The notes beneath the pieces were generated by a model that was not told the origin of the DNA, made no database searches, and saw nothing but the letters and a program-made list of their open reading frames with translations. 64,000 nt of DNA, taken from assembly GCF_007559435.1 (NCBI RefSeq), contig NZ_VMBP01000004.1, positions 1-64,000 of the forward strand, read 5' to 3'. The position numbers and the translations under genes were made by a program. This document shows positions 8,005 through 24,929 of the stretch, piece after piece. How positions within the stretch are numbered: position 1 is the first letter of the stretch; each line of letters begins with the position of its first letter. This DNA comes from Ancylobacter moscoviensis (lineage in GTDB: Bacteria; Pseudomonadota; Alphaproteobacteria; Rhizobiales; Xanthobacteraceae).

Positions 8005-8367
8005 ATGGCTCAGTACCAGGACGCTACCGAGCGCCGCAAGGCGCGTGTCCGTCGTGCTCTCCGCGCGACGGCGAACGGGCGGCCGCGCCTTTCGGTGCAT
8101 CGCTCGTCGAAGCACATCTATGCGCAGATCATCGACGACGCGCGCGGCGTGACGCTTGCGGCCGCCTCGACGCTCGAGAAGGACCTGCGGGGAAGCCTGA
8201 AGACCGGCGCGGATATCGCGGCGGCCCAGGCGATCGGCAAGCTCGTGGCGGAACGTGCCGTCGCAGCCGGTGTGAAGGATGTGGTCTTCGACCGCGGCGC
8301 CTTCATCTATCACGGCCGCGTCAAGGCGCTCGCCGATGCCGCCCGCGAGGGCGGCCTCAACTTCTGA
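8005..8367 (+). CDS. rplR: 50S ribosomal protein L18
   Basis: 120 aa. L18 carries 5S rRNA to the large subunit together with L5 and L25. The N-terminal basic region ([21 protein letters not shown]) and C-terminal [28 protein letters not shown] positions match the family. Confidence 0.97.
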
Positions 8368-8409
8368 GATCACGAGCGGGATCCCCCGCAGAACGACGAG
8401 GATAAGATC

Positions 8410-8961
8410 ATGGCTCGTGAACGTGAGCGTGAACGCGAGGATCGCGACAACACGTTCGTGGACAAGCTGGTCCACATCAACCGTGTCGCGAAGGTTGTGA
8501 AGGGCGGCCGTCGCTTCGGCTTCGCCGCGCTGGTCGTCGTGGGCGACCAGAAGGGCCGCGTCGGCTTCGGCCACGGCAAGGCCCGTGAGGTGCCGGAAGC
8601 GATCCGCAAGGCGACGGAAGCCGCCAAGCGCGCGCTGATCCGCGTGCCGCTGCGCGAAGGTCGAACGCTGCACCATGACGTGCACGGCCATCACGGCGCC
8701 GGCAAGGTCATCCTGCGCGCTGCTCCGGCCGGTACCGGCATCATCGCCGGCGGCCCGATGCGCGCGGTCTTCGAGACGCTCGGCATGCAGGACGTGGTGG
8801 CGAAGTCTTTCGGCTCGTCCAATCCGTACAACATGGTCCGCGCGACCTTCGAGGCCCTGAAGAACCAGGATAGCCCGCGTCTGGTTGCGGCTCGCCGCAG
8901 CCTGAAGGTGTCGCAGCTTCAGTCGCGCCGCCGCGTCGACGACGCGGAAGCGACCGACTGA
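8410..8961 (+). CDS. rpsE: 30S ribosomal protein S5
   Basis: 183 aa. S5 combines a dsRBD-like N-terminal domain (about residues 20-85) with a C-terminal S5 fold and acts in decoding fidelity. The N-terminus begins with an Arg/Glu repeat (RERERERED), a feature of alphaproteobacterial S5. [19 protein letters not shown] is the signature. Confidence 0.97.
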
Positions 8962-8987
8962 CGCCTGAGAGGTCAAGGAAACTTATC

Positions 8988-9179
8988 ATGGCGAAGAGCA
9001 CCAAGACGGTCACGGTGGAGCAGGTCGGCAGCCCGATCCGCCGCCCTGACGATCAGCGGGCCACCCTCATCGGTCTCGGCCTCAACAAGCTCGGGCGTCG
9101 TTCGACGCTCGAAGACACCCCGGCCGTGCGTGGCATGATCCAGAAGGTTCGCCACCTCGTCCGCGTCGTCGAAGCGTGA
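8988..9179 (+). CDS. rpmD: 50S ribosomal protein L30
   Basis: 63 aa, with a ferredoxin-like small fold. [21 protein letters not shown] is recognisable L30 with the alphaproteobacterial RRPDDQ variant of the usual R-x-x-x-Q region. AGGTCAAGGAAAC precedes the ATG. Confidence 0.95.
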
Positions 9180-9199
9180 CGGCGGGAAGGAGACAGGCG

Positions 9200-9691
9200 A
9201 TGAGCAGCCTCAACGAGATCAAGGACAACGCCGGCGCCCGCAAGAAGCGCATGCGCGTCGGCCGTGGCATCGGTTCCGGCAAGGGCAAGACCGCCGGCCG
9301 TGGCGTGAAGGGTCAGACCTCGCGCACCGGCGTCGCGATCAAGGGCTTCGAAGGCGGCCAGATGCCGATCCATCGGCGCCTGCCCAAGCGCGGCTTCCAC
9401 AACATCTTCGCGCTGGACTGGAACGAGGTCACCCTCGGTCGCATCCAGACGGCGGTCGATGCCGGCAAGCTGGACGCCAAGGCGACCATCACCCAGGCGA
9501 CGCTCGTCGAGGCGGGCGTGCTGCGCCGCGCCAAGGCTGGTGTGCGCGTGCTCGGCTCCGGTGAGCTGAAGGCGAAGGTGACGCTTGAAGTCGCGCATGC
9601 GACCAAGTCCGCCCTCGCGGCGGTCGAGAAGGCCGGCGGCAAGGTGACGCTGCTCGCGTCCAAGGCCGAGACTGGCGAAACGGCGGCCTGA
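9200..9691 (+). CDS. rplO: 50S ribosomal protein L15
   Basis: 163 aa from ATG 9200 (GGGAAGGAG Shine-Dalgarno). An in-frame start at 9176 overlapping rpmD is rejected. The Gly-rich basic N-terminus ([19 protein letters not shown]) threads into 23S rRNA. secY follows after 58 nt. Confidence 0.96.
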
Positions 9692-9749
9692 CGCTTAAGT
9701 CAGGCCTATCCGTACACTTGCAGAGCACAGACGAGGGAGCGAAGCCACC

Positions 9750-11077
<1,328 letters not shown>

Positions 11078-11081
<4 letters not shown>

Positions 11082-11662
11082 GGCTCATTCTGCTCGGGCC
11101 GCCGGGGGCGGGTAAGGGCACGCAGGCTCAGCGTCTGGTCACGCGCCACGGGATCGTCCAGCTCTCGACCGGCGACATGCTGCGGGAGGCGGTCCGCAAC
11201 GGGACGCCTATCGGGCTCAAGGCCAAGGCCGTGATGGACGCGGGGCAGCTCGTTTCGGATGAGATCGTGGTCGGGATCATCTCCGACCGCATTGACGAGC
11301 CGGATTGCGCCCGCGGGTTTATCCTCGACGGTTTCCCGCGCACGGTGGCTCAAGCGGAGGCTCTTGACCGCATCCTCGCGGAGAAGGGCCTCAAGCTTGA
11401 CGCGGTGATCGAGCTCAAGGTTGATCAGGACAAGCTGGTCCATCGTATCATCCAGCGCGCCAAGGAGACGGCGGCGCGCGGCGAGCCGGTGCGCAAGGAC
11501 GACGATCCGGAGGTCTTCAAGACCCGGCTCGAAGCCTTCAACCGGGATACCGCCGTGGTCGCGCCTTACTATGCGAAGCGGGGCCTTCTGGTGGCTATCG
11601 ACGGCATGCAACCGATCGACGAGGTCACCAAGGCGATCTCGGACGTGCTCGAGACGGTCTGA
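11078..11662 (+). CDS. adk: Adenylate kinase, short-LID type
   Basis: 194 aa. It catalyses ATP + AMP = 2 ADP. The P-loop GPPGAGKGT is at residues 7-15, with AMP-site motifs TGDMLR and DGFPRT. The LID is short (around [19 protein letters not shown]), so there is no zinc-binding LID domain and the enzyme is about 20 aa shorter than E. coli Adk. This short form is usual in alphaproteobacteria. Overlap with secY indicates coupling. Confidence 0.97.
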
Positions 11663-12855: not shown

Positions 12856-13872
12856 GTGATTCAGAAGAATTGGCAGGAGCTGATCAAGCCCGAGAAGCTC
12901 GAGGTCGCGGTCGGCAGCGATCCGAAGCGCCTCGCGACCGTTGTCGCCGAGCCGCTGGAGCGTGGCTTTGGCCAGACGCTCGGCAATGCGCTGCGCCGTA
13001 TCCTGCTGTCCTCCCTCCAGGGCGCGGCGGTGACGTCCGTGCATATCGACGGCGTCCTGCACGAGTTCTCCTCTATTCCGGGCGTTCGCGAGGATGTCAC
13101 CGACATCGTTCTGAACATCAAGGACATCGCCATCAAGATGGCCGGCGACGGCCCGAAGCGGATGGTGGTGAAGAAGCAGGGTCCGGGCATCGTCACCGCC
13201 GGTGACATCCAGACGGTGGGCGATGTGCAGGTGCTGAACCCCGAGCTCGTGCTCTGCACGCTCGACGACGGCGCCGAGATCCGCATGGAGTTTACGGTCG
13301 ACACCGGCAAGGGGTACGTGGCGGCGGATCGCAACCGTCCCGAGGACGCGCCGATCGGCCTCATTCCGGTCGACAGCCTGTACTCGCCGGTCAAGAAGGT
13401 CTCCTACAAGGTCGAGAACACCCGCGAGGGCCAGATCCTCGACTATGACAAGCTGACCATGACCATCGAGACCAACGGTTCGGTCAGCCCCGAGGACGCG
13501 CTCGCCTTCGCCGCGCGCATCCTGCAGGACCAGCTCGAGATCTTCGTCAACTTTGAGGAGCCCAAGCGCGAAGCGGAAAGCCCTGCCATGCAGGAGCTGC
13601 CCTTCAACCCGGCGCTGCTGAAGAAGGTGGACGAGCTGGAGCTGTCGGTCCGTTCGGCGAACTGCCTGAAGAACGACAACATCGTCTACATCGGCGACCT
13701 GATCCAGAAGACCGAGGCGGAGATGCTCCGCACCCCGAACTTCGGCCGCAAGTCGCTGAACGAGATCAAGGAAGTTCTCGCGAGCATGGGCCTGCACCTC
13801 GGCATGGAAGTGCCTGGCTGGCCGCCGGAGAACATCGAGGATCTCGCCAAGCGGTTCGAAGATCACTACTGA
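12856..13872 (+). CDS. rpoA: RNA polymerase subunit alpha
   Basis: 338 aa starting at GTG 12856 (the typical alphaproteobacterial opening [12 protein letters not shown]). The alpha dimer nucleates core RNA polymerase. The N-terminal assembly domain (about 1-235) contains [16 protein letters not shown]. The C-terminal domain (about 250-338), which contacts UP elements and activators, contains [12 protein letters not shown]. Promoter-bound regulators in this genome act through this subunit. Confidence 0.98.
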
Positions 13873-13946
13873 GCATTGAACGCGGCGTTCGAGCCGCTAC
13901 AACCATCATCGGCTCGAAAGCCGTCGCACGTTAGGATTTAGTCGCC

Positions 13947-14378
13947 ATGAACCACGGCAAAGCCCATCGCCGGTTCAACCGGACCGCTGAGCACCGCAAG
14001 GCCATGTTCGCCAACTTGGCGCAGGCGCTCATCACCCATGAGCAGATCATCACCACCCTGCCGAAGGCCAAGGATCTTCGCCCGGTGGTCGAGAAGCTGA
14101 TCACCCTCGGCAAGCGTGGCGGTCTGCACGCCCGCCGCCAGGCCATCGCCGAAGTGCGCGACGTTGCCGTCGTGCGCAAGCTCTTCGACGTGATCGGCCC
14201 GCGCTACAAGGAGCGCAACGGCGGCTACACCCGCATCATCAAGGCGGGCTTCCGCCATGGCGATTCGGCGGCGATCGCGGTGATCGAGCTGGTCGACCGC
14301 GACGAGGCGGCCAAGGGCGCGGCGGATCTCGCCCGTCACGAGGCGGCGAAGGCGGAAGAAGCCACCGCCGCGGCGTGA
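13947..14378 (+). CDS. rplQ: 50S ribosomal protein L17
   Basis: 143 aa. L17 lies near the exit tunnel. The N-terminal [17 protein letters not shown] and [21 protein letters not shown] positions are diagnostic. An Ala/Glu tail (about residues 117-143) is lineage-typical. It is the last gene of the alpha operon, closed by a strong terminator. Confidence 0.97.
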
Positions 14379-20091: not shown

Positions 20092-20859
20092 ATGTATCCT
20101 GTCATGACCGATGCGCCGCACCTCACCCCGAACCCCGCCGCCATGGCGCGCGATGTGCTCTCGCCCGTGCTTCTCGCCGGGCCCGGCAATCCGCCGGTGC
20201 GCTGGCGTGTCTCGGTGGAGCCCGTCGCCTATCCCGACGCTCTGGCGGAGATGGACCGGCTGGCCGAGGAGATCGCGGCCGGGCGTGCCGACGAACTGGT
20301 CTGGCTGCTGGAGCATCCCCCGCTCTACACCGCTGGCACCAGCGCGCGGCCGGAGGATCTTGTGGACGCGGAGCGATTCCCGATCTTCCAGACGGGGCGG
20401 GGCGGGCAGTTCACCTATCACGGCCCCGGCCAGCGCGTGGCCTATGTGATGCTCGACCTCAAGCGCCGCGAGCCGGACCTGCGCCGCTACGTCGCCGCGC
20501 TGGAGGAATGGCTCATCCGTGCGCTCGACGCCTTCAACGTGAAGGGCGAGCGGCGCGAGGACCGCGTCGGCGTCTGGGTGCGCCACCCGACCAAGGCCGG
20601 GGAGGGCGAGGACAAGATCGCCGCCATCGGCATCCGCGTGCGCCGCTGGGTGACGATGCACGGCATCTCGCTGAATGTGGAACCGGAGCTGTCGCATTTC
20701 GCGGGCATCGTGCCCTGCGGGGTGCGCGAGCACGGCGTCACCAGCCTCGTCGAGCTGGGGCTGCCGGTGACGATGGAGGATGCCGACCTCGCGCTGCGCC
20801 GCGCCTTTGAGACGGTCTTCGGGCCGACGATCGCCGAGGAGGCTACGCCGTCAGCTTGA
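20092..20859 (+). CDS. lipB: Lipoyl(octanoyl) transferase
   Basis: 255 aa from ATG 20092; ATG 20104 is an alternative start, and the N-terminal 35 residues are weakly conserved. LipB moves octanoyl groups from acyl carrier protein to lipoyl domains of 2-oxoacid dehydrogenases and GcvH. The signature [12 protein letters not shown] is at 103-114. The catalytic pair is Lys175 (in DKIAAIG) and Cys209 (in GIVPCG). An insertion around residues 165-174 ([10 protein letters not shown]) is typical of alphaproteobacterial LipB. Its end overlaps the convergent anti-sigma gene by 17 nt. Confidence 0.94.
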
Positions 20860-21280
20860 AGCCGAGGGTCAGCACGTTGCGTCCACCCTCGCGCCGGTAG
20901 GCGAAGCTGTCGCAGAGCGTGCGCACCAGATGCACGCCGAGCCCGCCTATGGGGCGTTCCTCGACCGTGCCGGTGAGGTTCGGCGCCGGGGCGGCGAAGG
21001 GATCGAAGGCGTCGCCATCGTCGCTGAAGGTGAGTTCCAGCCGGTCGCCGGTGCGGCGGATATGTACGCCGATGTCGCCGGTGCGCCCGTCCGGGTAGCC
21101 GTGGTCGACGGCGTTGTTGAAGAACTCGTCGACCGCGAGCTCCAGCCGGTAGGCCGGCGTCGGCGGGATGTCCGCCTGCTCGATGAAGGATTCGAGCCGG
21201 CCGATCAGCGGTTCGAGCTGGCTGAGGTCGTTCGTCAGGCGGATGTCGAGCTCAAGGTCAGTCAACGGCCCGTCCCCCAT
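20843..21280 (-). CDS. RsbW-like anti-sigma serine kinase (GHKL ATPase)
   Basis: 145 aa. A single HATPase_c_2 domain with the N-box [15 protein letters not shown] (Glu52, Asn56), a G1-like SDDGDAFDP (Asp87-Asp88) and the G2 region GGLGVHLVR (112-120), so ATP binding is intact. Such proteins phosphorylate a STAS antagonist and sequester a partner (often a sigma factor). The STAS partner is probably the gene 35 nt upstream. No sigma factor gene is nearby, so the output is unknown. Confidence 0.85.
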
Positions 21281-21315
21281 TCCGTCGCGCCGCCGATGAA
21301 GCCGGTGGCGCCCGA

Positions 21316-21651
21316 TCAGGTGAAGGTGGCGAGGGCCGCTTCGCGGCTCTGATGGATCGGAATCAGCGTCGAGAAGCCGCTGACGTCGAACACTTCATGC
21401 ACCTGCGGGATCAGGCCACACACCGCCAGCGTCGCGCCGGAGCTGCGCGCCAGCTTGGTGGCCTTCAGCACAACGCGCAGGCCGGCCGAGCTGATGTAGG
21501 TGAGATCGGCGAAGTCCAGCAGGATGACGCTGCCGTCGTCCGGCGCCGCCGCCAGGAACTCGTCCAGCTTGGGAGAAGAGCTGCTGTCGAGCCGTCCCCG
21601 TACGGCGGTGACCACGACATTGCCCTCGACGATACGGTCGATCTGTATCAC
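21316..21651 (-). CDS. STAS-domain anti-anti-sigma factor (RsbV/SpoIIAA-like)
   Basis: 111 aa, GTG start with TTGGAG upstream. The single STAS domain has the phosphorylation loop ISSAGLR with Ser55 as the expected phosphoserine. It most likely binds the neighbouring RsbW-like kinase in its unphosphorylated form. It is transcribed with the downstream kinase (35-nt gap) and lies 174 nt after the permease gene; nothing recognisable is in that gap beyond the Shine-Dalgarno. Confidence 0.86.
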   Translation of the reverse strand: MIQIDRIVEGNVVVTAVRGRLDSSSSPKLDEFLAAAPDDGSVILLDFADLTYISSAGLRVVLKATKLARSSGATLAVCGLIPQVHEVFDVSGFSTLIPIHQSREAALATFT

Positions 21652-21825
21652 GTCCCAACTCCAAGAATGCCGCTGCAGGACGCTGCCGGGACAGGACCGG
21701 GGGCATGTTCCGTGCCCGCTTCGCCTGCCGGTCCGCCTGTCGCGTGCGGATGCCTGAGAAGTACCGGCAACGCGCTAGCCGCGCAAGCGTGTCCGGCGGG
21801 TCTCGATGCCGTCGCGCGGCGTCCG

Positions 21826-23550
21826 TCAGTGCTCGAAACGAAGGGTGAGGATCTGCCGTTCGCCCTCCTTGCCGAGCACCAGCCGGTCGGCGCGCTTGCT
21901 CAGCATGTAACCCACGAAACGAGCCACCGCCTGCGCGTCGCCGAGCAGGTCCTCGGGCGCGGGGCGGTGGGTGGGAATGGCGATCGCCTCGCCCTCGTAG
22001 AGCAGGCTGACGTCGAAATTGGTCTCATCGAAGCGGGCACGCATTTCGACGCCCTTCTCGGCGACGCCGGTGTCGAGCAGCATCTCGACGGCTTCCGCCA
22101 CCACCGGAATGGCGGCGGCGATCACGTCGCGCCGCGCGCCCCACAGGTCACCCTGGCGTTCGAGGAACTCGGTTGTCGCCACGAACGGGTTGTCGCCCGG
22201 CACCACCGGACGCGACGCCTCCTGCCGGATGCCGATGCGGAAGAACAGGTTCAGCGCGATGGCGACGCCGGTCGAGACCGAGAGCGGGGATTCCAGAATG
22301 GGCTGCATCCAGTCCGGCGTGGCGTGCACCAGCTCCGGCAGGATCGCCACGGCGAGGCCGGTGAGGACCGCGAGGCCGACGGTGAAGATGCGCCGGTCGC
22401 TCAGGCGGCGGGAGAGGATGAGTTCCATGCCGGCCACGATGAGGAAGGCCGCCGCATAGATCAGGATCGCGCCGATGACCGGGGCGGGGATGATCGTCAG
22501 CGCGCCAATCAGGCGCGGCGAGAAGGTCGCGAGCAGCATCATCGCGCCGGCCACCACGCCGACGCGCCAGGCGGTGGTGCCGGTGGCGAAGGCGACGCCG
22601 ATGGCGGCGGAGGAGGAGGCGCTGGCGAAGCCGCCGGTGACGGCGGCACCCATGTCCGCGACGGTGTTGGCGCGGATGGCCCGTCCCGCCTGCGCGAGGT
22701 CGGCCCGCCGCCAGTCGGCGTCGTCCATGCGCTGCATCGAGACGACCGTGCCGAGCATGTCGACGGCGGAGATGATGCCGGTGAGGATGGCCGCCGGTAC
22801 GAGCGCCCAGGAGAAGAAGCTGATGCCGGGCAGGCCGAGCTTGGGCAGGTCCACATAGGGCAGGGTGGAGAAGGTCTCCGCCGGGGCGGGGGCCACGCCG
22901 ACATAGGCCGCCAGTCCCCAGCCGACCCCGGCGCCGATGGCGACGGCGAAGAGGCGCAGCAGGCCGCGCGAGAAGATGGCGAGCAGGATGATGATGACCA
23001 GCGACACGAGGCTGACCAGCGGATAGCGCAGATCCAGCGCTGCGCCGCCGCTTTCCGCGGCCAGGTTGAACACGCGGCGCAGCGCCGGCTCGGCCAGAGC
23101 GACGCCCAGCATGGTGACGGCGACGCCGCAGATCTCCGGCGGGAACACCGCCCGCAGCGCGCCCATGAAGCGGGAGAGGGTGAGCTGCGAGACGGCGGCT
23201 ATGAGGCTCATTCCCGCATACAGCGCCGGCCCGCCGGCGGCCATGGACTGCACGGCGAGCGGCAGGTGTGCCATGTTCGGGATCTGAATCAGCAGCAGCC
23301 CCGCGCCGACCCTCGGCAGGCATTCGATCAGCGTCGCCAACGCCATGAAGATGATGCAGCTGGTGATCAGCATCTGGGTGTCCTCGAAGGACATCCCGGC
23401 CTCGGCGGCCGCCACCAGCGGATAGACGAGGAACAGCAAAGCGAGGCTGGCGTGCTGTATGGCGAGGATGACCAGCGTGCCGAGCGGGAGCTTCTCGTTG
23501 ACCGAGTAGAGAATGTTCGAAGGTTTGCGCGGCATGTCGGCGGCGACCAT
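21826..23550 (-). CDS. NCS2 (uracil/xanthine-type) permease with C-terminal degenerate RsbW-like domain
   Basis: 574 aa from ATG 23550. No good Shine-Dalgarno is visible, and starts at 23535 (ATG) or further upstream are possible. Residues about 10-445 form a 14-segment UraA-fold transporter (family SLC23/NCS2). The last roughly 105 residues are soluble: the predicted secondary structure and spacing (AEAVEMLLDTG, FDETNFDVSLLYEGE, LLGDAQAVARFVGYML, ILTLRFEH) follow an anti-sigma HATPase, but the DxGxG ATP motif is replaced. The substrate is unknown; nucleobase is the family default. It is located directly upstream of STAS and RsbW genes in the same direction. The domain call is by eye and is the uncertain part. 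Confidence 0.72.
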   Translation of the reverse strand: MVAADMPRKPSNILYSVNEKLPLGTLVILAIQHASLALLFLVYPLVAAAEAGMSFEDTQMLITSCIIFMALATLIECLPRVGAGLLLIQIPNMAHLPLAVQSMAAGGPALYAGMSLIAAVSQLTLSRFMGALRAVFPPEICGVAVTMLGVALAEPALRRVFNLAAESGGAALDLRYPLVSLVSLVIIILLAIFSRGLLRLFAVAIGAGVGWGLAAYVGVAPAPAETFSTLPYVDLPKLGLPGISFFSWALVPAAILTGIISAVDMLGTVVSMQRMDDADWRRADLAQAGRAIRANTVADMGAAVTGGFASASSSAAIGVAFATGTTAWRVGVVAGAMMLLATFSPRLIGALTIIPAPVIGAILIYAAAFLIVAGMELILSRRLSDRRIFTVGLAVLTGLAVAILPELVHATPDWMQPILESPLSVSTGVAIALNLFFRIGIRQEASRPVVPGDNPFVATTEFLERQGDLWGARRDVIAAAIPVVAEAVEMLLDTGVAEKGVEMRARFDETNFDVSLLYEGEAIAIPTHRPAPEDLLGDAQAVARFVGYMLSKRADRLVLGKEGERQILTLRFEH

Positions 23551-23729: not shown

Positions 23730-24929
23730 CTATTCCGAGGCGACCGGCCGCCCGCTCATGTTCTGGTGCGACAGCCACCAAGCGCGGGCGCGCTCGTGCG
23801 GCAGCGGCCGCGCGAACAGGTATCCCTGAACCAGATCGCAGGACCAGTCCTGGAGCAGCGACAGGGTGCGCTCGTCCTCGACGCCCTCGGCGACCACGCT
23901 GAGGCCGAGATTATGGCCAAGGTCGATGATCGCCTTGACGATGATCCGCGTGTGTTCGGAGGAGGTGCAGTCCGAGATGAGCGAGCGGTCGATCTTCAGC
24001 TCGGCGAAGGGGAGGCGCTGGAGCTGGACCAGCGAGGAATAGCCGGTGCCGAAATCGTCGAGCGACAGGAGGAAGCCGCGCAGCCGCAGCCGCGTCAGCA
24101 CGTCGAGCGCGCGGGCGGGGTATTGCATCGCCGCGGTCTCGGTGATCTCGATCATGATGCGATGGTGGCCGACGCCGGCCTTGGTACAGCGCTTCCACAG
24201 CCGGTCCGCCAGCGAGATGTCCTCGACGTCCGAGGCGGCGAGATTGATGGCGAGCGAGGCATCTATGCCGGTCTCGTCCCAGCTCTTGAGCGTCTCCAGA
24301 GCCAGGTTGAAGAGGTGGTCGGAGAAGGCGAGGCTCAGTCCGGACGCGGCGATCTGGGGGATGAAATCGTCGGGCATCACCAGCCCGCGGCTCGGGCTGT
24401 GCCAGCGCATCAGTCCCTCGAAGCCGATCGGCGCGTAGCCGGGGCCGTCGTGGTCGTTGCGCAGGAGGCGGACCTTGGGCTGCAGATAGAGCTGGAACTC
24501 CCCCCGCTCCATTGCGTTGGTGAGTTCGCCCCGGGTCGGCAGCAGGTGGATACTTACCCGGAGGCGCTCGAAGACCTGCCGGAGATCGTCGAGCCGTACC
24601 GGCTTGCTGACGATGTCGCTGACCTCGAGGTCGTGCGCCCGGGCGAAATGGCGGGCGGATTCGAGGACCTTCCGGTCGACGCCGCTCATGATCACCACCG
24701 GACGGCGGAACTTCATCGCCGCCAGCCGCCGCAGCACCTCGATGCCGTCGAGCGTGGGCATCTGCAGGTCGATCACCACGCTGGCCTCGGGCCATGTGGG
24801 TATGGCGGAGAGAAAGGCCTCGGGTTCGCTGAAGGTGGTGCCCTCGAAGCCGCTGAGTTCCGCCACCGTCGCGACGTACTCGCCGATCTCCGGTTCGTCG
24901 TCGAGGATGAGAATCTTGTGCTCAGGCAT
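23730..24929 (-). CDS. Response regulator with EAL cyclic-di-GMP phosphodiesterase domain
   Basis: 399 aa from ATG 24929; a GTG 9 nt upstream is possible. The receiver domain (1-125) has Asp10/Asp11, phospho-acceptor Asp54, Ser82 and Lys109. The EAL domain (about 135-395) has EGL (Glu171) in place of EAL. It keeps the metal and catalytic residues: Asn in INLAASD, Glu in IEITET, DDFGTGYSS, Lys in LKIDRS, Glu in VAEGVED, and the terminal QGYLFARPL. It should therefore be an active c-di-GMP hydrolase controlled by phosphorylation. No cognate histidine kinase is adjacent. Confidence 0.9.
   Translation of the reverse strand: MPEHKILILDDEPEIGEYVATVAELSGFEGTTFSEPEAFLSAIPTWPEASVVIDLQMPTLDGIEVLRRLAAMKFRRPVVIMSGVDRKVLESARHFARAHDLEVSDIVSKPVRLDDLRQVFERLRVSIHLLPTRGELTNAMERGEFQLYLQPKVRLLRNDHDGPGYAPIGFEGLMRWHSPSRGLVMPDDFIPQIAASGLSLAFSDHLFNLALETLKSWDETGIDASLAINLAASDVEDISLADRLWKRCTKAGVGHHRIMIEITETAAMQYPARALDVLTRLRLRGFLLSLDDFGTGYSSLVQLQRLPFAELKIDRSLISDCTSSEHTRIIVKAIIDLGHNLGLSVVAEGVEDERTLSLLQDWSCDLVQGYLFARPLPHERARAWWLSHQNMSGRPVASE

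Follow-up and report, generated by a model that had tools for sequence, protein, structure and literature searches.

A 64,000-nucleotide stretch of Ancylobacter moscoviensis DNA (contig NZ_VMBP01000004.1, positions 1 to 64,000; hereafter the window) encodes a membrane permease of the NCS2 fold with a C-terminal tail that is predicted to fold like the anti-sigma kinase RsbW, and which has lost the usual motifs for ATP binding. The permease gene is followed by genes for a small STAS protein and for an RsbW-like kinase. On balance, and with some reserve, we favour the reading that the permease is the effector (output) of a partner-switching system, in which the STAS protein would choose between the true kinase and its dead copy on the permease tail. 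This reading is built on a tail that has the predicted fold, lacks the ATP motifs and is kept by purifying selection, and on a linkage with STAS, RsbW and PP2C genes that is conserved and recurs. That STAS binds the tail, which way the signal runs and any effect on transport are inferred.

The elements of the locus are the following:

22231..23550, minus strand: NCS2 (SLC23/UraA-fold) permease core, residues 1-440 of 574 amino acids (PF00860, Foldseek)
21826..22230, minus strand: pseudo-RsbW tail at the permease C-terminus, residues 441-574 plus stop (AlphaFold2, Foldseek and VIA alignments, hhalign, motif loss)
21316..21651, minus strand: free-standing STAS protein (RsbV/SpoIIAA-like), 111 amino acids, Ser55 conserved (Pfam, NCBIfam, alignment)
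20843..21280, minus strand: predicted RsbW-like serine kinase, 145 amino acids, with N-box, G1 and G2 motifs intact (Pfam HATPase_c_2, motifs)

The whole permease gene thus spans 23550-21826 and encodes 574 amino acids. The three genes are co-directional, with gaps of 174 bases between permease and STAS, and 35 bases between STAS and RsbW. This three-gene arrangement, together with its coordinates, had been noticed in an initial annotation made from the sequence alone, and it was confirmed here, with all genes on the minus strand.

The permease tail and the free-standing switch proteins

The membrane core of the protein matches Xan_ur_permease (Pfam PF00860) with an E-value of 4.8e-36 over residues 26-406. 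Among the NCBIfam models, NCS2_1 scored above its cut-off and the remaining NCS2 models below theirs. A model of the full-length permease (pLDDT 88.3) matched UapA, SVCT1 and UraA in Foldseek at E-values of 4e-15 to 3e-14, and also structures of the SLC26/SulP transporters, at 1e-8 and weaker. In this model the tail begins just past the last membrane helix, and its first strand lies a few residues after that helix. The initial annotation had described about 105 extra soluble residues; the soluble tail is present, but it is longer, at about 134 residues (441-574).

No Pfam or NCBIfam family was matched on the tail of the window permease, and a search of PDB chains with the tail profile, by sequence only, gave nothing convincing (best E-value 0.47). 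The AlphaFold2 model of the 134-residue tail has a mean pLDDT of 93.3, and its 17 Foldseek matches with E-values up to 0.001 consist of SpoIIAB, RsbW and mycobacterial anti-SigF/UsfX chains and two chains of the response regulator LvrC. In VIA-align the Z-score was 13.4 for UsfX and RsbW, 11.6 for LvrC, 10.1 for SiaB, and around 8.4 and below for histidine-kinase domains. The tail alignment comprised 21 tails from the window and its relatives within the order; tails and 11 RsbW domains were matched by hhalign over 126 columns (E-value 3.3e-9, for a single comparison). When the alignments were merged, none of the 32 tails had the N-box Asn or the G1 Asp, and 24 of them still had Glu at the position of the catalytic Glu. 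Having lost the first two residues, the tail is not expected to bind ATP in the usual way, and it should be regarded as a pseudo-RsbW domain rather than a kinase. Finally, the tail of the window permease was compared with those of seven relatives, giving dN of 0.13-0.19 and dS of 0.52-0.99. As dN is well under dS in all seven comparisons, the tail is, by this measure, under purifying selection. The initial annotation had read the spacing of strands and helices in the tail as that of an anti-sigma kinase lacking its ATP motif, and had proposed profile and structure searches as a check; these matched the RsbW/SpoIIAB (GHKL) fold and bear that reading out.

The free-standing STAS protein matches the Pfam STAS family (E-value 4.1e-16) and NCBIfam ant_ant_sig (1.8e-19), and it is the sole STAS-profile match in the genome of the window at E-values up to 1e-10. 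Its Ser55, by its motif the presumed phosphorylation site, is conserved: each of the 12 linked STAS proteins in the alignment has Ser in this column. The neighbouring protein matches HATPase_c_2 (PF13581) with an E-value of 2.7e-26 and retains E52, N56, D87-D88-G89 and GGLG; it scores under the cut-offs of the NCBIfam RsbW equivalogs. We classify it as an RsbW-type kinase with intact ATP motifs and predicted activity. Both proteins had been described in this way in the initial annotation, and that description holds. One other match to PF13581 was found in the genome at E-values up to 1e-6, a weaker one of 32 bits within an open frame of 903 amino acids. With one STAS match, one strong RsbW-type match and one SpoIIE match, the genome contains the partner-switch gene set of STAS protein, RsbW kinase and PP2C phosphatase.

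Two groups of tail-bearing permeases and their substrate positions

The distribution of the tail was examined by searches of increasing breadth, several of which scored no more than 3 to 10 candidates in each genome, so that the counts of tail-bearing permeases are lower bounds. Within the order, a search with the tail only gave matches in 8 of 150 genomes (the genome of the window counted), one of them spurious. Within the class, the whole protein found matches in 12 of 190 genomes at 1e-40, and a full-length profile run against 385 genomes yielded 21 matches scoring over 480 bits, spread over 15 genomes and without exception extending through the tail; these form clade 1. A second group, clade 2, scored about 220-310 bits with the same profile, has open frames of 573-777 amino acids, and is also tail-bearing. 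The matches of ordinary NCS2 proteins end near model position 429-454. In the phylum, matches through the tail were found in only 3 of 299 genomes, all from the class of the window; a tail-profile search of 398 phylum genomes, which found only 4, was too blunt and was superseded by the full-length searches. In the genus of the window 29 of 30 genomes match, 25 of them at 74-100% identity and four with a more distant tail at 33-36%. By these searches, tail-bearing permeases constitute two divergent NCS2 groups within one class. Two candidate relatives of the tail were rejected as spurious: a Phycisphaerae match (L026) inside a protein of 1060 amino acids that reads by eye as a serine/threonine kinase, and a locus of genome G034 (L034) in which no permease frame was seen.

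Some particularities of these groups deserve mention. One locus (L061) holds two convergent, adjoining tail permeases of different subclades, at 8058-9677 (plus strand) and 9732-11600 (minus strand), and its genome (G447) has a third elsewhere. The clade-2 loci (L123-L135) include up to three matches per genome. Seven clade-2 tails were scanned against HATPase_c_2: one (L127) gave an E-value of 3.1e-6, just above the Pfam cut-off, another (L126) 3.7e-4, and five gave no match. The clade-2 tails share a conserved end with the consensus LRLLRHxASSVxHQQYHDTDI.

The tail-bearing permeases also differ from ordinary ones at positions of the membrane core. We take the canonical substrate residues of the NCS2/NAT family to be a Glu in TM8 and the Q/E/P-N-x-G motif in TM10. 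These residues are absent from the window permease, which has Asp at the TM8 position and AAIG in TM10. Tail-less NCS2 homologues had both the Glu and the TM10 Gln-Asn in three of three rows. By contrast, none of the 33 tail-bearing rows has the Gln-Asn where it would align, and the TM8 Glu is missing from all 26 rows of clade 1 (Asp in 14, Arg in nine, Asn in two and Thr in one); in clade 2 the Glu is kept in five of seven rows. With these residues altered, substrate is probably bound otherwise than in the known uracil and xanthine permeases. Judged from its sequence, the window permease is a divergent member of the NCS2 fold whose substrate is uncertain, and we do not class it as a nucleobase permease.

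Gene neighbourhoods and linkage to the switch genes

Conservation of the gene order, another check proposed in the initial annotation, was found in all 18 Ancylobacter-type loci, i.e. the window and 17 close relatives (15 Ancylobacter and two Xanthobacteraceae), where permease, STAS and RsbW genes keep both order and direction, and the association recurs in distant lineages. In all 17 relatives STAS, RsbW and PP2C share one neighbourhood: some 5 kb downstream there is an oppositely oriented gene for a PP2C phosphatase, and between it and the switch genes are those for a hybrid histidine kinase and a single receiver, likewise convergent, and for a Na/Pi cotransporter. The hybrid histidine kinase of the relatives is 73-86% identical to the copy in the genome of the window, where the corresponding cluster encodes proteins with the domains Response_reg and SpoIIE; PAS, HisKA, HATPase_c and two Response_reg; and Response_reg.

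Fuller loci were found further afield. In L066 (genome G610), a hybrid kinase with TorS-type sensor, HAMP and PAS domains, a receiver, a receiver-PP2C protein, RsbW, STAS and the permease are encoded in one direction, with overlapping reading-frame ends from RsbW through STAS to the permease. Its kinase is 47% identical to that of the Ancylobacter-type cluster (over 525 amino acids) and its receiver 65% (over 122 amino acids). The clade-2 locus L142 (G834) encodes a HAMP-PP2C-RsbW fusion, STAS and the permease. L077 and L078 encode a protein with an N-terminal part that appears membrane-spanning by eye and a C-terminal RsbW domain, a HAMP-PP2C protein, a divergent STAS and the permease, with a solute-binding protein in addition in L078. 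In the four genus members with the more distant tail (L211-L214), the PP2C gene adjoins the permease. The input proteins are HAMP-PP2C in L078, L142 and L211, and a hybrid histidine kinase with receiver-PP2C in L066 and the Ancylobacter cluster. No sigma factor was found among the neighbours listed for the fuller loci, nor in the 25 commonest families of the neighbour scans (which covered 92 of 106 and 59 of 63 proteins picked by a simple gene caller).

Besides these genes, several neighbours were recorded as side observations. Proteins with a C-terminal RsbW domain (HATPase_c_2) are encoded at 14484-15638 of L078, 3853-5961 of L077 and 4406-5560 of L174; in those of L077 and L078 the G1 Asp is replaced by Tyr, with N-box and G2 retained, and they are possibly another fusion of membrane and RsbW parts. 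The genus has two arrangements, and in both of them the Na/Pi cotransporter gene adjoins the switch genes (L165, 7986-9581; L211, 240-1841; L164, 8565-10001); the protein of L165 is about 29% identical to those of L211 and L214, and no match was obtained at 1e-20 in L212 and L213. It could be a second transport output. As an alternative output it was set aside, since L066 yields no match. Directly upstream of the window permease, in the same direction, lies one further gene:

23730-24929, minus strand: receiver-EAL protein

Beyond the window this gene was found in one of 32 further loci (L216), which have limited flanks and in part overlap one another, and it is probably not part of the system. 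A tandem repeat, seen by eye in the open reading frame listing, adjoins the STAS gene of L064 at about 13840-14300.

A STAS gene lies within 3 kb of the permease in 18 of 18 Ancylobacter-type loci, 5 of 27 distant clade-1 loci and 1 of 29 clade-2 loci; none was found within this distance in seven Azorhizobium/Xanthobacter-type loci (three of them on short contigs) or 20 tail-less NCS2 controls of the class, nor in 29 tail-less loci with 1.5-kb flanks (L083-L109, L136, L137). The loci L211-L215 were added later and stand outside the 3-kb counts. From the density of STAS matches (38 in 26 genomes, 128 Mb), the chance of one lying near a given permease is roughly 0.0024. In a tree of 85 proteins, the linked rows (11 of the 65 tail-bearing ones) fall in at least four places, and the chance of four or more of 65 is 2e-5 if the rows are taken as independent. 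For this tree the last 120 residues of tail-bearing rows were trimmed, leaving about 14 tail residues, and 13 of the 18 Ancylobacter-type rows and the fragmentary L023, L069 and L147 were omitted; the tail-less control L190, with a doubtful reading frame, has a very long branch.

The arrangement of partner genes also bears on which protein meets the tail. In L064 and L076 a divergently oriented STAS gene beside the permease is the sole partner gene within 3 kb, and RsbW within 3 kb without STAS was seen in no case, which suggests that it is STAS with which the tail partners directly. One might instead propose that the tail heterodimerises with the free RsbW kinase and anchors it at the membrane. 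Kinase and tail share a fold, RsbW-family kinases dimerise, and in L211-L214 the RsbW gene is slightly nearer the permease than the STAS gene (about 5 and 6 kb). Given L064, L076 and the absence of RsbW without STAS, we nevertheless consider such an anchor very unlikely.

Several observations weigh against the permease as target of the switch, to which the gene distances in L211-L214 belong as well. The PP2C cluster of the window genome is on another contig (C6). The linked RsbW domain of L077 and L078 lacks the G1 Asp, which makes kinase activity doubtful there. As the usual substrate residues have been lost, the protein may not transport. Of the distant permeases, 6 of 56 are linked, compared to 0 of 20 tail-less controls, a difference that is not significant (Fisher p 0.33), and four of the five distant clade-1 linkages represent one clade. 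Of the 81 tail-bearing permeases scanned, 57, those of the Azorhizobium and Xanthobacter relatives included, have no STAS gene within 3 kb, and the second tail permease of G900 (L215) is also unlinked. These unlinked permeases would suit a tail that serves the permease structurally or in forming dimers and has no switching partner, the linkage to STAS being secondary. The commonest families among the unlinked neighbours are unrelated (LysR, NUDIX, dehydrogenases, luciferase-like and others, within the 25 commonest), both RsbW/SpoIIAB and UraA/UapA are dimers, and the STAS domain of SLC26 has itself been proposed as a structural or dimer-forming module. The repeated linkage in at least four places of the tree argues against this alternative, as does the co-occurrence of tail and STAS at the level of the genome. 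In a hand-picked set, a STAS match was found in 25 of 26 tail-bearing and 7 of 28 tail-less genomes (nine of the latter from one genus, and seven checked for tails with a single tail sequence only). Counted by genus the figures are 14 of 15 and 7 of 18 (p 0.003), and with the linked genera removed, 8 of 9 and 7 of 18 (p 0.02); linked STAS proteins had served to train the STAS profile, which is thus biased toward finding such, and clade 2 was represented by G834 and G562 only. Of the clade-1 genomes with unlinked tail permeases, 16 of 17 tested have a STAS match elsewhere, and in several unlinked genomes (L168-L172, L175-L177) the STAS gene is grouped with RsbW and/or PP2C. We therefore regard a purely structural tail as distinctly unlikely.

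The permease as candidate output of a partner switch

In known switches (SpoIIAA/SpoIIAB, RsbV/RsbW) the unphosphorylated STAS protein binds the RsbW fold, and it is from this that docking of STAS on the tail is inferred. In Ancylobacter, a sensor histidine kinase with receivers would control the receiver-PP2C phosphatase, which would dephosphorylate the small STAS protein, while the RsbW-like kinase would re-phosphorylate it. Unphosphorylated STAS would then have two partners of RsbW fold, the true kinase and the dead copy on the permease tail. Docked on the tail, it might alter how active or how stable the permease dimer is, until phosphorylation at Ser55 released it.

The initial annotation had proposed the opposite direction, a membrane-anchored partner-switch sensor. 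Its pseudo-kinase tail and its switch stand, but the permease as sensor is less supported, and the direction is probably reversed. As a sensor, the permease would be a transporter-like receptor whose substrate frees or captures STAS at the tail, with STAS and RsbW reporting to another output. Transporter-like receptors exist, and the alteration of the canonical binding residues in the tail-bearing groups would suit a receptor. However, separate input proteins sit in the same loci, and the listed neighbours include no other output except the Na/Pi cotransporter in the genus of the window; we rate the sensor as rather unlikely. Since the inputs in the fuller loci are other proteins, and no sigma factor is among the listed neighbours, the permease fits better as the output. 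In loci with the full set, sensing would reside in the kinases and phosphatases, and the permease with its dead RsbW domain is the part without another role. Extended to alphaproteobacteria, the proposal would be that a family of NCS2-fold permeases is controlled at the protein level, a dead RsbW tail docking unphosphorylated STAS, so that a two-component phosphorelay acts on membrane transport without transcription; we consider the case for this broader statement to be evenly balanced.

The system resembles RsbU-RsbV-RsbW and SpoIIAA-SpoIIAB in its STAS protein with a conserved Ser, its RsbW-type kinase and its PP2C (SpoIIE-type) phosphatase with receiver or HAMP inputs. It differs in that a membrane permease with a dead RsbW domain is in the place of the target, and that no sigma factor is among the listed neighbours. 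Partner switching under the control of phosphorylation ordinarily acts on regulators of genes; here it would act on a transporter. With the non-sigma proteobacterial switches SypE/SypA, RbaVWY and HmpUVW it shares a STAS output, whereas here the permease tail, encoded next to the switch, is a concrete candidate for the target. SLC26/SulP transporters likewise combine a related membrane fold with a C-terminal domain of partner-switch type; those carry the STAS half, while this NCS2 group carries the RsbW-fold half and has STAS as a separate gene. In the case of MlaB-MlaF, no RsbW-fold domain or kinase/phosphatase pair is known. There a STAS protein, MlaB, is bound to the ATPase of an ABC transporter and acts on that transporter (PMC7367683), and this offers a precedent for STAS acting on transport. 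Two further papers describe STAS outputs of several proteobacterial partner switches that act on unknown targets (PMC8256260, PMC3999984), and attempts to find a cognate sigma factor in Rhodobacter capsulatus that failed (PMC3999984). Among the matches listed from the open-licence literature (titles and abstract openings, with subscription papers and preprints outside), there was no NCS2 permease with an RsbW-type domain and no permease as a partner-switch target.

The locus supplies a candidate target open to direct test, and targets of this kind could explain what the STAS outputs of non-sigma proteobacterial switches bind. If the proposal is true, the permease would mirror the SLC26-STAS arrangement, in that a transporter of that fold class bears the opposite half of the switch, and two-component systems would gain a further way to act on transport at the level of the protein.

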